Source of the DNA: Dehalococcoidia bacterium
GTDB taxonomy: Bacteria > Chloroflexota > Dehalococcoidia > Tepidiformales > Tepidiformaceae
NCBI GenBank assembly: GCA_009839725.1
Contig: VXPF01000006.1
Coordinates: forward strand, 1 to 59,497
Reading direction: 5' to 3'
Length of the DNA stretch: 59,497 nucleotides
Notes under the pieces: model-generated
What the model saw: only the letters and a program-made list of their open reading frames with translations
Databases searched by the model: none
Told to the model about the DNA's origin: nothing
In this document: piece by piece, positions 54,409-58,593 of the stretch
How positions within the stretch are numbered: the stretch's first letter is position 1
How the letters are laid out: each line of letters begins with the position of its first letter
Made by a program: the position numbers and the translations under genes

Positions 54409-54989
54409 CCGACCATCCTCTTCTCTTCCATGATCTTCTCCTGCAGCCGCAGGAAGCCATCGAGCAGGGACTCGGGGCGGGGCGGGCAGCCCGGCACGTA
54501 CACGTCCACCGGGATGATCTTGTCGACGCCCTGGAGCACGCGGTCGTACTCGGTGTAGGGGCCGCCGTTGGTGGCGCAGGCGCCCATGGAGATGACGTAC
54601 TTCGGGTTCGGCATCTGCTCGTAGAGCAGCTTGATCGCCGGCGCCATCTTCTTCGTGACCGTGCCCGAGACGACCATCACGTCGCTCTGGCGGGGGCTGG
54701 GCCAGGGCACGATGCCGAAGCGGTCGAGGTCGTGGTTGGCCATGAACGTGCCGATCATCTCGATCGCGCAGCAGGCCAGCCCGAAGGTCATCGGCCAGAG
54801 CGAGCTCTTGCGGCTCATGGCCAGCACCGTGTCGACACCCGTCTGCAGGATGCCCGGCATGACGATGCGGTAGGCGGCCGTCTGCTCGGGCAGGTCGACG
54901 GGCGTCAGGCGCTCGGCTTCGTTCCCGTAGTCGGGCACGTAGGCGGGCATCGCCGGCCCTTCAGGCGTGGAGGCCGCTTCGTCGCTCAT
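54405..54989 (-). CDS. nuoB: NADH-quinone oxidoreductase subunit B
   Basis: This 194-residue subunit holds cluster N2, the last electron carrier before quinone. Ligands are the tandem Cys of [10 protein letters not shown], a Cys in [11 protein letters not shown], and [11 protein letters not shown]. An N-terminal extension of about 30 residues ([12 protein letters not shown]...) is longer than usual. Its ATG overlaps the nuoA stop (54986-54989). Confidence 0.96.
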
Positions 54990-55354
54990 TTCCACTCCAG
55001 AACGCCGCGCCGCCAGGCGTAGACCAGCCCGAGGCTGAGCACGACGATGAACACGAACATGTACCAGAAGACGACATCGGGGATGCCCTGGTTCAGGAAG
55101 ATGACCGCCCAGGGGAAGATGAAGATCGTCTCCACGTCGAAGATAAGGAACATGATCGCGAAGATGTAGTAACGCACGTGGACCTGCGCCCAGTTGCGCC
55201 CGATCGGCAGCATGCCGCACTCGTAGGAGACGCCCTTGCCGCGCTCCCGCGCGAAGGGCCCCAGGAGCCGCGCCCCGACGAGGGCCGAGAACACGAGAAT
55301 GAAGCCGACGATGGAGGCGATAAAGACGGCGGACCAGGTGTCGTAGAAGCTCAT
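54986..55354 (-). CDS. nuoA: NADH-quinone oxidoreductase subunit A
   Basis: The 122-residue, three-helix subunit carries [20 protein letters not shown] in its cytoplasmic loop and [14 protein letters not shown] in the second helix. It is the first gene of the 11-gene operon, which continues to nuoN with overlaps or gaps of a few bases. GAGG lies a few bases before the ATG. I see no convincing promoter in the 180-bp GC-rich leader shared with the divergent TcmP gene. Confidence 0.95.
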
Positions 55355-55519: not shown

Positions 55520-55531
55520 GTACATATGTTC
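55520..55531. promoter_or_regulatory. LexA-box-like site at the TcmP start
   Basis: GTAC-ATAT-GTTC with a flanking G matches 12 of 14 bases of the Gram-positive SOS box CGAACATATGTTCG. It overlaps a TACATA -10-like element and ends 3 bp before the preferred ATG of TcmP. Sites with one core mismatch are expected by chance tens of times in such a window, so position and extended match matter more than the core alone. Confidence 0.4.
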
Positions 55532-55534
55532 GTT

Positions 55535-56626
55535 ATGCCGGAAACCACAGTTTGGCCACTAGAACCCCATACAGCCGCCAAGCACTCGATTCTGCGTCGG
55601 TACCTCCAGGGCTACTACCCAAAGATGGCCAGCGCTCAGCGGCGCTTGGTCTTCGTTGATGGCTTCGCAGGACCGGGCGAATACGTGGGAGGCAAGCCCG
55701 GTTCACCCGTCATCGCGCTGGATACGCTCACTGGCCACAACCAGTTCCCAAGGTGGTCGGACACGGAGTTCCTCTTCCTCTTCATTGAGGAGGACGCAGC
55801 CCGCTTCGAGTTGCTCTCTTCGACTCTGGCCGCTCGCGAGGATCCCGCCAATGTGCGTGTTGCTACGCGTTGTGGCTCCTTTCAGGAGCACATGACGGAT
55901 GTCCTGGATCGTCTCGGTACGAATCGCCTCGCCCCCGCGTTCGTAATGGTTGACCCCTTCGGTGTGAAGGGCCTGCCGCTTGACCTTCTTCGACGCCTGG
56001 CCAAATTCCCAAAGACCGAGCTGCTTGTCTCGTTCATGTATGAGTCAATCAGCCGGTGGCACTCGCAACCCAACTACGAGGTTGCCCTCGATGAACTCTT
56101 CGGTCGGCCGGACTGGCGCGACGCTGAAGGGCTGGAGGGCGAAGAGAAGAAGGCTTTTCTCAGTGGGCTCTACGCAACGCAGCTACAAGGCATCGGCATG
56201 GACTATGTCCGACTCTTCGAGATGGGCGATGCCGGGAACCGCACGGAGTATTTCCTCGCCTTCGGTACACATAGTCACCATGGCCTAAGGGTGATGAAGA
56301 ATGCCATGTGGACAGTGGACCGAACGGGTGGGGTGAAGTTCTCAGATTTCACGGCACCTGATCCGGGGCAAGGCGTGCTCTTTGAGCCCGAGCCGAATTA
56401 CCCTCAGCTGCGCGCCCTTCTCCACCCGAAGTTTGCCGGGGAGGGCCAAGTTCCGATCGAGGAAATCGACTGTTTCGTGCTGACGGAAACGGCCTTCCTT
56501 GAGAAGCATGGCAAGACAGTCCTCCGTGAGGATGAGGCGGCTGGCTCTGTGAAGATCCACCGACCGTCGGGGCGGAGGAAGAACTATCTGAATGAGGGCA
56601 CGGTGGTCACGTTCCCGCTGCTTTGA
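55535..56626 (+). CDS. tcmP: Three-Cys-motif partner protein (TcmP family)
   Basis: The 363-residue protein matches the TcmP family, which occurs beside proteins with a three-cysteine motif. It starts ETTVWPLEPHTAAKHSILRR. A nuclease-like or Rossmann-like core follows: LVFVDGFAGPGEYVGG, FIEEDAARFELL, and PAFVMVDPFGVKGLPLDLL (acidic DPFG). A distal part of mixed helices ends RRKNYLNEGTVVTFPLL. Its biochemical role is not established. Base composition is less GC-rich than the nuo genes beside it. Its 3' end overlaps the convergent DUF5131 gene by 20 bp. ATG 55526 is an alternative start but lies in the LexA-like box. No Shine-Dalgarno is seen, so the mRNA may be leaderless. Confidence 0.85.
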   Translation: MPETTVWPLEPHTAAKHSILRRYLQGYYPKMASAQRRLVFVDGFAGPGEYVGGKPGSPVIALDTLTGHNQFPRWSDTEFLFLFIEEDAARFELLSSTLAAREDPANVRVATRCGSFQEHMTDVLDRLGTNRLAPAFVMVDPFGVKGLPLDLLRRLAKFPKTELLVSFMYESISRWHSQPNYEVALDELFGRPDWRDAEGLEGEEKKAFLSGLYATQLQGIGMDYVRLFEMGDAGNRTEYFLAFGTHSHHGLRVMKNAMWTVDRTGGVKFSDFTAPDPGQGVLFEPEPNYPQLRALLHPKFAGEGQVPIEEIDCFVLTETAFLEKHGKTVLREDEAAGSVKIHRPSGRRKNYLNEGTVVTFPLL

Positions 56627-57356
56627 CCGCTGTGGGCATCCCGTTCCACAGTTGTCCGTCGAGTACGCGCCCCGCGCGGCCTTTGCCGACCCTCTGACCC
56701 TGCGCGTTGTGAGCGCCCCATTGCTTAAAGAAAAAGGGAACCCCCGCTGCGACGCACTGATCGCGTAGGGCGCAGGCCCACTCTGGATTCATTCGGCGTG
56801 CTCTGTGGCCCGACTCCCCGCCCGCAATCACCCAGCCGATGCCAGCCAGGTCGATGCCGTGCAGCGGTCCCAGCAGCGGCTCGCACGACGCGAACCGTAC
56901 GTGTGCAGGGATACCCCGAAGCGTGTCGAGGCGATGCAGGAAGCGGCGGTTCTCGACCGACGTTCCCATCCAGACGTTCGCCGGCCACGGGAGCTCCGGT
57001 GATAGCTCAAGCGCGCGCTCCGGGCGCTTCGTGAGCACCTGGAAGGTGTGCCAGTCCGCACGTTGCATTGTGTCGAACACCCGCTCCACATACTCCGCCT
57101 GAACCTCCTCGTGAAAGAGGTCGCTCATGCTGTTGACGAAGATCATCCGTGGCTTCCGCCACGTAAGCGGCAGTTCCAGCCGCTCTGGCCGGAGTGTCAG
57201 ATCGAATCCCTGCTCGTAAGGATGCCCGGGCACACCCCGGAATCGCTCGGCGAAGGTCTCGGCGTAGCAGTGAGCGCACCCGGGGCTGACCTTCGTGCAG
57301 CCGGTCACGGGGTTCCAGGTCGCTTCAGTCCACTCGATCGATGAGACGGAGCTCAT
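56607..57356 (-). CDS. DUF5131 (phage Gp37/Gp68-like) three-cysteine protein
   Basis: The 249-residue protein begins SSIEWTEATWNPVTGC and has C20, C27 and C30 in GCTKVSPGCAHCYAE (C-x6-C-x2-C), reminiscent of a radical-SAM 4Fe-4S site. The barrel-like remainder includes RMIFVNSMSDLFHE, FQVLTKRPERAL and WVIAGGESGHRARRM. VPFFFKQWG follows near the end. This family is found in phages and as the partner of TcmP, which is encoded here on the opposite strand with overlapping 3' ends. The ATG has GGAGG 7 nt upstream. Function is unknown; RNA or nucleotide modification is one reading. Confidence 0.88.
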   Translation of the reverse strand: MSSVSSIEWTEATWNPVTGCTKVSPGCAHCYAETFAERFRGVPGHPYEQGFDLTLRPERLELPLTWRKPRMIFVNSMSDLFHEEVQAEYVERVFDTMQRADWHTFQVLTKRPERALELSPELPWPANVWMGTSVENRRFLHRLDTLRGIPAHVRFASCEPLLGPLHGIDLAGIGWVIAGGESGHRARRMNPEWACALRDQCVAAGVPFFFKQWGAHNAQGQRVGKGRAGRVLDGQLWNGMPTAVKAAGT

Positions 57357-57390
57357 TTCGGGCCTCCCACTTCGCGAGTTTCACCACCAA

Positions 57391-57402
57391 GAACACCCGT
57401 TC
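57391..57402. promoter_or_regulatory. LexA (SOS) box upstream of the DUF5131 gene
   Basis: GAAC-ACCC-GTTC is a perfect match to the GAAC-N4-GTTC core of the Gram-positive/actinobacterial LexA site, extended to AGAAC/GTTCT. It lies 35 bp before the DUF5131 start, just downstream of the proposed -10 and so over the transcription start. Confidence 0.5.
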
Positions 57403-57404
57403 TA

Positions 57405-57432
57405 ATAGTAGACGATTCTACGCTACCGGCAA
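57405..57432 (-). promoter_or_regulatory. DUF5131 gene promoter
   Basis: On the minus strand TTGCCG (57432-57427) and TACTAT (57410-57405) are spaced 16 bp apart, directly before the LexA-type palindrome. Together they form a plausible repressible promoter. Confidence 0.5.
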
Positions 57433-57453: not shown

Positions 57454-58593
57454 GTGAACGCCGCCGCCCCTTACCTCGACGCCCTCGACGCCATGGCCCC
57501 GCTCGTCGCGGCCGAGGCCGAGCGCTCAGAGCGCGAGGCGCGCACCACCCCGCCCGTCGCCGAGCGCATCGTCGACGCGGGGCTGTACCGGTTGTGGCTG
57601 CCCCGCTCCATCGACGCCCCCGAGCTCGAGATGCCCTCCGCCCTCAAGGTGTTCGAGGCCGCTTCCCGCATCGACGGCTCCTTCGGCTGGGCCGTGACCA
57701 TCGGGACCGGCGGCGGGCTCTTCGCGGGCGCCCTCGAACCGGCCACGGCGGCCGAGATCTTCGGCCCCCGCGAGGCCCTCATCGCCGGCTCCGGCAAGCC
57801 CGGCGGAACCGCCCGGCCCGTCGACAGCGGCTACCTCGCCGGGGGGCACTGGAACTTCGCCAGCGGCGCCCACCACGCCACCTTCTTCACCGCCAACTGC
57901 TTCCTCGAGGACGAGCGGCCCGCCGATGGCGGCGACGGTCCTGTCATCCGTGCGATGGCCTTCCCCGCGAGCGAGGTCGAGATCGTCGAGAACTGGGACC
58001 CCGCCGGCATGCGCGGCACGGGCAGCCACGACTTCCGCGTCGAGAGCAGCCTCGTCCCCTACCGGCGCAGCTTCGATGTCTTCGGCGACTGGGCCTTCGA
58101 GCGCGGTCCCCTCTACCGCTACCCCTTCGCCTCGCACGCGGAAGTGTCGTTCGCGGCGGTCGCGCTCGGCATCGGGCGGCACGCCATCGACGAGTTCCTG
58201 GCGCTGGCCGGCTCACGCAAGTCGCTCTACACCGGCGAGCCCCTGGGCGACCGCCAGGGGGCGCGCGCCCGCCTCGGCGAGGCCGAGGCGCTTGTGAGCG
58301 CCGCTCGCGCCTGGTTCTTCGAGGTTGCGCGGTCGAGCTGGGACACGGTCGCCGGGGGCGGCGCCCTGGACCGCGAGCAGGCCGCGCGCGTGTCGCTCGC
58401 CTCCATCCACGCCGCCAACAGCGCCGCCCGCGCCGCCACTCTCCTCTTCGAGGCAGGCGGCTCAGCCTCGCTCGACGCCGGATCGCCCCTCGCCCGCGCC
58501 TGGCGTGACGTGCACGCCCTCACGAAGCACGTGGCCGTCTCGCCGCTGGGCTATGAAGCCGCCGCCGCAGGCCTGCTCGACGCCGAAGGGTAG
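57454..58593 (+). CDS. Acyl-CoA dehydrogenase-like flavin oxidoreductase
   Basis: The 379 residues match the group-D flavin monooxygenase/acyl-CoA dehydrogenase fold. An N-terminal helical domain includes RIVDAGLYRLWLPRSIDAPE and ASRIDGSFGWAVTIGTGG. A beta domain reads GGHWNFASGAHHATFFTANC and WDPAGMRGTGSHDF. The C-terminal helical bundle has HAANSAARAATLLFEAGGS. These resemble HsaA/HpaB-type or nitroalkane-oxidase-type enzymes more than canonical acyl-CoA dehydrogenases. Substrate unknown. It begins at a GTG and its 3' end overlaps the convergent membrane gene by 43 bp. Confidence 0.85.
   Translation: MNAAAPYLDALDAMAPLVAAEAERSEREARTTPPVAERIVDAGLYRLWLPRSIDAPELEMPSALKVFEAASRIDGSFGWAVTIGTGGGLFAGALEPATAAEIFGPREALIAGSGKPGGTARPVDSGYLAGGHWNFASGAHHATFFTANCFLEDERPADGGDGPVIRAMAFPASEVEIVENWDPAGMRGTGSHDFRVESSLVPYRRSFDVFGDWAFERGPLYRYPFASHAEVSFAAVALGIGRHAIDEFLALAGSRKSLYTGEPLGDRQGARARLGEAEALVSAARAWFFEVARSSWDTVAGGGALDREQAARVSLASIHAANSAARAATLLFEAGGSASLDAGSPLARAWRDVHALTKHVAVSPLGYEAAAAGLLDAEG

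Follow-up and report, generated by a model that had tools for sequence, protein, structure and literature searches.

In the 59,497-nucleotide stretch of Dehalococcoidia bacterium contig VXPF01000006.1 (the window), a tcmP gene, encoding a three-Cys-motif partner protein, and a gene of the DUF5131 family converge on each other, and a palindrome of the LexA-operator type GAAC-N4-GTTC precedes the DUF5131 gene. We read the two genes as an SOS-controlled module for handling damaged nucleic acid, and put the probability of this reading at about 0.53. It is carried by LexA-type boxes that recur before homologues of the module, and by a predicted radical-SAM (S-adenosylmethionine) fold for DUF5131 that is nearest to spore photoproduct lyase, an enzyme that repairs ultraviolet-damaged DNA. 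LexA control itself, in those bacterial groups whose modules have matching boxes, we consider highly probable. An initial annotation, made from the letters of the window, had proposed a damage-induced, convergent and undescribed defence or repair system. Its LexA-type control, non-random pairing and radical-SAM fold hold up; its novelty and its use of convergence as a defining trait do not.

A LexA-type box in the window

The perfect box expected at the DUF5131 promoter is present (GAACACCCGTTC) and is the sole perfect GAAC-N4-GTTC in the 59-kb window. The motif of the host LexA is very likely of this same type, because the host lexA gene (L002/L027) carries GAACATCCGTTC just before its start. 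The comparison with the host LexA regulon that had been suggested as a check agrees with LexA control: the putative operator before DUF5131 equals the host LexA motif, and the 2.83-Mb draft genome contains 37 perfect sites, compared with 17 occurrences of the reversed control pattern. Many lineages lack such an operator. Other perfect sites in the host lie at L023:1589-1600, L024:1545-1556 and L034:1666-1677; by eye, the second is near a resolvase-like open reading frame (ORF) and the third near a ribonucleotide-reductase-like ORF. Of 30 lexA loci scanned across the window's phylum, 10 carry a perfect GAAC-N4-GTTC in the promoter, 4 of the 30 having been read on the wrong strand. Two lexA-like genes of the phylum (L226 and L227, from G252 and G294) have a CTGT-N8-ACAG box instead, unlike the GAAC-N4-GTTC of other members.

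A near match had also been noted at the start of tcmP. It is there (GTACATATGTTC, one mismatch among the 8 core bases), and a one-mismatch box recurs at the tcmP start in six of seven loci, namely the window and five relatives with the pair beside nuoA, being absent in G356. The window holds 21 matches with at most one mismatch where 17 are expected, however, so GTACATATGTTC is not significant by count, and its type, GTAC-N4-GTTC, is not enriched in the host genome (35 sites against 39 for the reversed control). The sequence may serve as a weak operator or as the -10 element of a promoter very near the start codon; we retain it as a candidate because it is conserved at its site, though chance fits the counts.

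Boxes before homologues often follow the host group

Scanning upstream of homologues, as had been proposed, showed that LexA-type boxes recur and often follow the LexA specificity of the host. These tallies rest on automatic calls of gene starts and flanking ORFs in a sample of largely draft genomes; upstream stretches shorter than 80 nt (100 nt in one tally) were skipped, the duplicate genome L285 was dropped, and motif expectations ignore relatedness. De novo motif searches used random seeds with similar upstream regions dropped, the DUF5131 search also having the coding part cut off. Among 70 DUF5131 upstream regions of the window's phylum, including some in which DUF5131 is the second gene, the best motif was AaTaGAACAttTGTtCTa (161 against 54-60 for shuffled sequences; mixing fraction 0.56). 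The sole motif returned from TcmP upstream regions looks like coding sequence of the preceding gene.

Within this phylum the perfect box depends on gene arrangement. It precedes DUF5131 in 5 of 9 convergent pairs, against an expectation of 0.01, in the one divergent pair not at all, in none of 20 lone genes, in 1 of 22 DUF5131-first modules and in none of 21 TcmP-first modules; the site is therefore imperfect or absent in most codirectional modules. Imperfect sites there are sometimes GAAC-N4-GTGC overlapping a TATAAT-like stretch, and several sites of the phylum are GAAC-N4-GTGCTATAAT-like and overlap an extended -10 element.

The LexA proteins of Alphaproteobacteria, myxobacteria and gamma- and betaproteobacteria read consensus motifs other than GAAC-N4-GTTC, so that these groups provide the discriminating test. 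A perfect N7 repeat precedes 14 of 21 alphaproteobacterial DUF5131-first operons (13 GTTC-N7-GTTC and one GAAC-N7-GAAC; three of the 14 are from Methylobacterium), GAAC-N4-GTTC precedes none of the 21, and neither motif stands before the second gene in any. The group includes L166 (titled metagenome) and L200 (titled Proteobacteria), assigned to it after their N7 box had been seen; without both the count is 12 of 19, and in loci sampled later it is, by subtraction, 5 of 9. In the other alphaproteobacterial arrangements the repeat was found before 2 of 15 lone DUF5131 genes, in neither of two TcmP-first operons, and in two convergent pairs never before DUF5131 and once before TcmP. A random-seed search of the alphaproteobacterial regions also returned the N7 repeat (93 against 62). 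In the same DNA away from these promoters, the two main motifs occur at 0.0046-0.0048 per 220 nt. The corresponding binomial tails are 4e-28 for the 14 of 21 alphaproteobacterial operons and 3e-10 for the convergent pairs of the window's phylum, both optimistic because related sequences were counted as independent and L166 and L200 were assigned afterwards.

In myxobacteria, CT-N8-GTTCAG in either orientation occurs in 4 of 5 module promoters; one of these boxes belongs to a TcmP-first operon, where it precedes TcmP, and another is common to a divergent pair. The strict pattern was not found in myxobacterial lexA loci; with one mismatch allowed, GTTCAGTA sites lie upstream of lexA in 4 of 4 myxobacterial genomes (a count without a chance control), three of which carry modules. 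Beta- and gammaproteobacteria have CTGT-N8-ACAG before TcmP in 2 of 14 TcmP-first operons (L219, AATACTGTATATTTATACAGTGTT, and L304) and never before DUF5131. In the phylum of G417, a record titled Actinomycetota, GAAC-N4-GTTC stands before DUF5131 in 1 of 7 DUF5131-first modules, 4 of 10 lone genes, 0 of 6 TcmP-first modules and 0 of 6 convergent pairs, and before TcmP in 1 of the 6 convergent pairs. No convincing motif came from de novo searches of the gamma/betaproteobacterial, G417-phylum and myxobacterial upstream sets, so their boxes are pattern matches only.

Copies elsewhere vary. Those on a Rhodococcus and a Sphingomonas plasmid have TTCGAACAAGGGTTCGA and a perfect N7 repeat, respectively, and a UBP9 convergent pair (L161) has GAACAAATGTTC. 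No perfect box was seen on four other actinomycete plasmids, three of which have a one-mismatch site, or in Phaeobacter and Persicobacter, and planctomycete, acidobacterial and other-phylum codirectional modules have essentially none of the four patterns. In G000 the module box agrees with the upstream site of its own lexA, and several myxobacterial and alphaproteobacterial genomes show such agreement at the level of box type. A distant DUF5131 subfamily (NPWHGC; L356, L357 and L358), near which no TcmP was found, has a perfect GAAC-N4-GTTC before the gene, the box sequence being identical in L356 and L357.

DUF5131 has a predicted radical-SAM fold and TcmP resembles methyltransferases

DUF5131 belongs to PF07505 (350.1 bits; gathering cut-off 28.9) and matches the PADLOC models PDC-M41B (E 2.2e-106) and PDC-M30B (E 2.5e-101). 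The initial annotation called it a three-cysteine, radical-SAM-like protein, and the predicted structure bears this out: the model (predicted local distance difference test, pLDDT, 91.9) is a radical-SAM barrel with spore photoproduct lyase as nearest fold, and the cysteines of its loop, C20-x6-C27-x2-C30, are invariant across 80 aligned sequences. The leading fold matches, with families read from entry titles, were spore photoproduct lyase, viperin, RlmN, lysine aminomutase and lipoyl synthase. By sequence, DUF5131 gave nothing significant against solved-structure sequences (best E 0.22 in one search, none in another). It does match the profile of Radical SAM mobile pair protein A (TIGR04471), but at 89.9 bits, far under the curated cut-off of 355, and so falls outside that family. 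Although the predicted fold is that of spore photoproduct lyase (SplB, COG1533), identity to it is 12-14%, and DUF5131, unlike that enzyme, is often partnered by TcmP. Viperin and RlmN are less similar to DUF5131 than spore photoproduct lyase is, and neither is known to have an SOS tie.

TcmP is a member of TIGR04474 (195.6 bits; curated cut-off 53) and matches PADLOC PDC-M30A (E 1.5e-58) and, weakly, PDC-M41A. Its N-terminal part is methyltransferase-like, with conserved D45xFAGxG and D143-P-F-G, and towards its C-terminal side residues 279-349 give a below-cut-off match to the Pfam GMT-wHTH family, a weak sign of a winged helix. The best profile match among solved-structure sequences is RlmJ, the 23S rRNA adenine-N6 methyltransferase, with which TcmP has in common a D-x-x-AGxG-Y stretch and a DP motif; the match is weak, and where TcmP has DPFG, RlmJ has DPPY.

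The pair, its arrangements and a variable site beside nuoA

Both ORFs are present, and their stops converge with the 20-bp overlap that had been described (Table 1). The antisense reading of each gene by the transcript of the other, also predicted, would be limited to those 20 bp. The claim of a low-GC (guanine plus cytosine) island holds for TcmP (0.590) and less well for DUF5131 (0.647), against 0.686 for the window, 0.676 on the nuo side and 0.744 for the acyl-CoA-dehydrogenase-like gene.

Table 1. Features of the module and its borders in the window
Feature	Position	Strand	Remark
tcmP, three-Cys-motif partner protein, 366 aa	55526..56626	+	second ATG at 55535 is an alternative start
DUF5131 (phage Gp37/Gp68 family) gene, 249 aa	56607..57356	-	PF07505 match
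3'-end overlap of tcmP and DUF5131, 20 bp	56607..56626		convergent stops
LexA-type box GAAC-ACCC-GTTC, GAACACCCGTTC (AGAACGGGTGTTCT on the DUF5131 strand)	57391..57402		34 nt before the DUF5131 ATG
One-mismatch LexA-type sequence GTACATATGTTC	55520..55531		overlaps the upstream tcmP ATG (55526)
nuoA-like gene	54986..55354	-	left border of the variable site; outside the module
Acyl-CoA-dehydrogenase-like gene	57454..58593	+	bounds the site on the right in several relatives; outside the module

The kin groups among the genomes searched and the nearest named loci (Chloroflexota, Dehalococcoidia) point to Chloroflexota as the window's phylum. In 400 genomes of this phylum, TcmP occurs in 82 and DUF5131 in 100. 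With hits under the family cut-off excluded and fragments of one gene counted singly, 55 of 81 TcmP hits lie within 2.5 kb of DUF5131: 22 TcmP-first, 22 DUF5131-first, 10 convergent and one divergent. In a Caldilineales metagenome-assembled genome (L148:3992-5572) DUF5131 and TcmP are fused in one open frame of 527 residues from the first ATG used. The suggested co-occurrence of the families is thus a non-random association, seen as neighbours, recurrent pairs and a fusion, and the convergent layout is just one among several. Convergent pairs overlapping by a few bases occur on three actinomycete plasmids, and convergent pairs that do not overlap on two more.

Relatives of the same genus or family vary at the site beside nuoA. 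TcmP there is of the window's type in G1180 and G1181 (58-61% identical), quite different in G1177 and G1183 (292 aa, sharing 27.8% identity over 266 aa with the TcmP of the window) and of a third type in G1185, all types being convergent with DUF5131; for DUF5131 itself, the window and G1177/G1183 share 89% identity. G1179 (L398) has a truncated TcmP remnant and an unrelated 191-residue ORF, the pair being gone, and G1178 and G1182 have neither tcmP nor DUF5131 beside nuoA. A box precedes DUF5131 in all five other nuoA-side pairs, perfect in G1180, G1183 and G1185 and with one mismatch in G1177 and G1181; G356, in whose stretch no nuoA was found, has none before DUF5131. DUF5131 thus looks like the constant part of the module and TcmP the exchangeable part.

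Catalogue status and mobile carriage

The module is not undescribed: both families are already in NCBIfam and PADLOC, where they are paired. The pair is catalogued as candidate systems PDC-M30 and PDC-M41, because PADLOC lists both proteins under them, and the window has A and B components together. Like the module, these are two-gene systems of the TcmP and DUF5131 families; they are predictions, and the parts of the two papers that we consulted mention neither SOS control nor a spore-photoproduct-lyase-like fold (PMC10855318, PMC11878078). No paper naming both COG4422 and LexA was found in a search that fell short of most subscription journals, so that earlier notice is possible, and the literature found gave no tested biochemical role for TcmP or DUF5131. 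One paper, PMC10354927, mentions "bacteriophage protein gp37" and LexA once each.

DUF5131 is spread over many bacterial phyla, with 80 named loci kept, and is present in 404 plasmid records and 161 phage records, TcmP being rarer in phages (14 records). Plasmid copies L362 and L363 adjoin Wadjet-like DUF3375/DUF4194/ATPase genes and drmC of DISARM. Pseudomonas plasmid copies L367, L371 and L389 lie downstream of a site-specific integrase/recombinase gene, in the same order and with no perfect SOS box. Two temperate Gordonia phages (L384:3992-6570 and L385:2992-5284) hold a convergent pair between integrase and immunity repressor, TcmP lying directly behind the repressor on the same strand. 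Two flanks, in L210 and L224 (titled Bacteroidetes), have Ada-like alkylation-repair genes.

To compare neighbourhoods we selected 140 of 161 flanking ORFs and scanned 139 (one TcmP removed), and selected 140 of 162 control ORFs, mostly from lexA, nuoA and random host loci, and scanned 136 (four TcmP/DUF5131 pieces removed). The flanks matched 177 PADLOC families and the controls 10, a comparison that decides little because the control was not matched by genome. Among the 25 PADLOC families listed, mostly redundant specificity-subunit models, none occurs in more than 2 of the 139 flanking ORFs. The leading Pfam families there belong mostly to ordinary metabolism.

Repair, defence and other explanations

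Repair is to us the best single explanation, because it fits the SOS control, the fold and the report of SplB-type radical-SAM proteins in SOS regulons (parts consulted of PMC8565304, PMC9380542 and PMC3765255). That the purpose of the module is repair, by direct lesion reversal or lesion-directed modification, we judge an even chance. On this explanation, LexA would repress DUF5131, and TcmP where the promoter is shared, until RecA filaments trigger LexA cleavage. DUF5131 would then use S-adenosylmethionine and a [4Fe-4S] cluster held by C20, C27 and C30 to form a 5'-deoxyadenosyl radical, which may act on a damaged or modified base as in spore photoproduct lyase, and TcmP, methyltransferase-like and with a possible winged helix, would be the exchangeable member of the pair, choosing the nucleic-acid target or modifying it further.

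A number of observations weigh against this account. The cluster motif of spore photoproduct lyase, C-x3-C-x2-C, differs from the C-x6-C-x2-C of DUF5131, and the RlmJ match (E 0.023) ties TcmP only weakly to methyltransferases. The distribution of the module is patchy and includes plasmids and phages, as for defence genes. Perfect boxes are missing from 7 of the 21 alphaproteobacterial DUF5131-first operons, from two P. aeruginosa plasmids, from P. veronii and, before DUF5131, from the three phages scanned (of five); a further tally of codirectional modules in the window's phylum found one in 1 of 24 DUF5131-first and 0 of 27 TcmP-first modules. Twenty TcmP-first modules of "Other" phyla and six of planctomycetes lack perfect boxes except for one likely chance match, though the patterns may not be the LexA motifs of these hosts. 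Some boxes are of the wrong type: in the window's phylum the N7 repeat precedes DUF5131 in 3 of 24 DUF5131-first modules, where 0.18 would be expected (L088, L090 and L099, one genus), and single wrong-type sites occur in gamma- and betaproteobacteria. The myxobacterial pattern was picked after two of the upstream sites had been seen, and relatives in the box counts are not independent, a kinship that the statistics ignore.

The chief rival, which we hold possible though doubtful, is an SOS-tuned defence against phages or mobile elements: the pair would modify or damage invading nucleic acid, LexA would raise the radical-SAM enzyme upon infection or transfer that sets off the SOS response, and TcmP would be exchanged to escape counter-measures. 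Both proteins are PADLOC candidates, and PDC-M30 is present in 32 of 100 P. aeruginosa strains, with 68.8% of these 32 being phage-resistant, a correlation only (part consulted of PMC10855318). The Sinorhizobium meliloti tcmP gene SMa2243 is listed next to the Hna defence gene SMa2245 (part consulted of PMC12445080). The exchange and loss of TcmP at one site, the carriage on plasmids and between integrase and repressor in the Gordonia phages, the Wadjet-like and drmC neighbours and the 177 PADLOC families of the flanks also suit defence. The flank excess is blunted by its redundant models, by the thin spread of each listed family among mostly metabolic neighbours and by the unmatched control, and the LexA tie together with the spore-photoproduct-lyase-like fold favours repair.

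It is improbable that the palindrome merely resembles a LexA box and is read by another regulator, such as an element-borne repressor, or belongs to the promoter itself. The sites lying over an extended -10 and the lack of enrichment of the TcmP near-box type would fit this; against it, the motif type shifts from one host group to the next largely in step with LexA (N4 palindrome, N7 direct repeat, GTTCAG type, CTGT-N8-ACAG) and agrees with lexA sites as described above. A chance box beside chance neighbours, for which the 17 reversed-control sites in the host might speak, is scarcely credible given the binomial tails, even read as optimistic, the fusion and recurrent pairing, the random-seed motif search and the group-by-group box counts.

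Significance

We tentatively propose, at a little under even odds, that DUF5131-TcmP is a widespread SOS repair enzyme that reverses lesions by radical-SAM chemistry of the spore-photoproduct-lyase type, has an exchangeable methyltransferase-like partner setting its target, and is also carried on plasmids and temperate phages. The SOS tie and the DNA-repair fold turn a defence candidate into a testable enzyme, for which one can ask which lesion or base it acts on and whether TcmP sets the target. If repair is its role, what has been counted as defence is a repair function; if defence is, then LexA would link a defence system to DNA damage in several bacterial groups.

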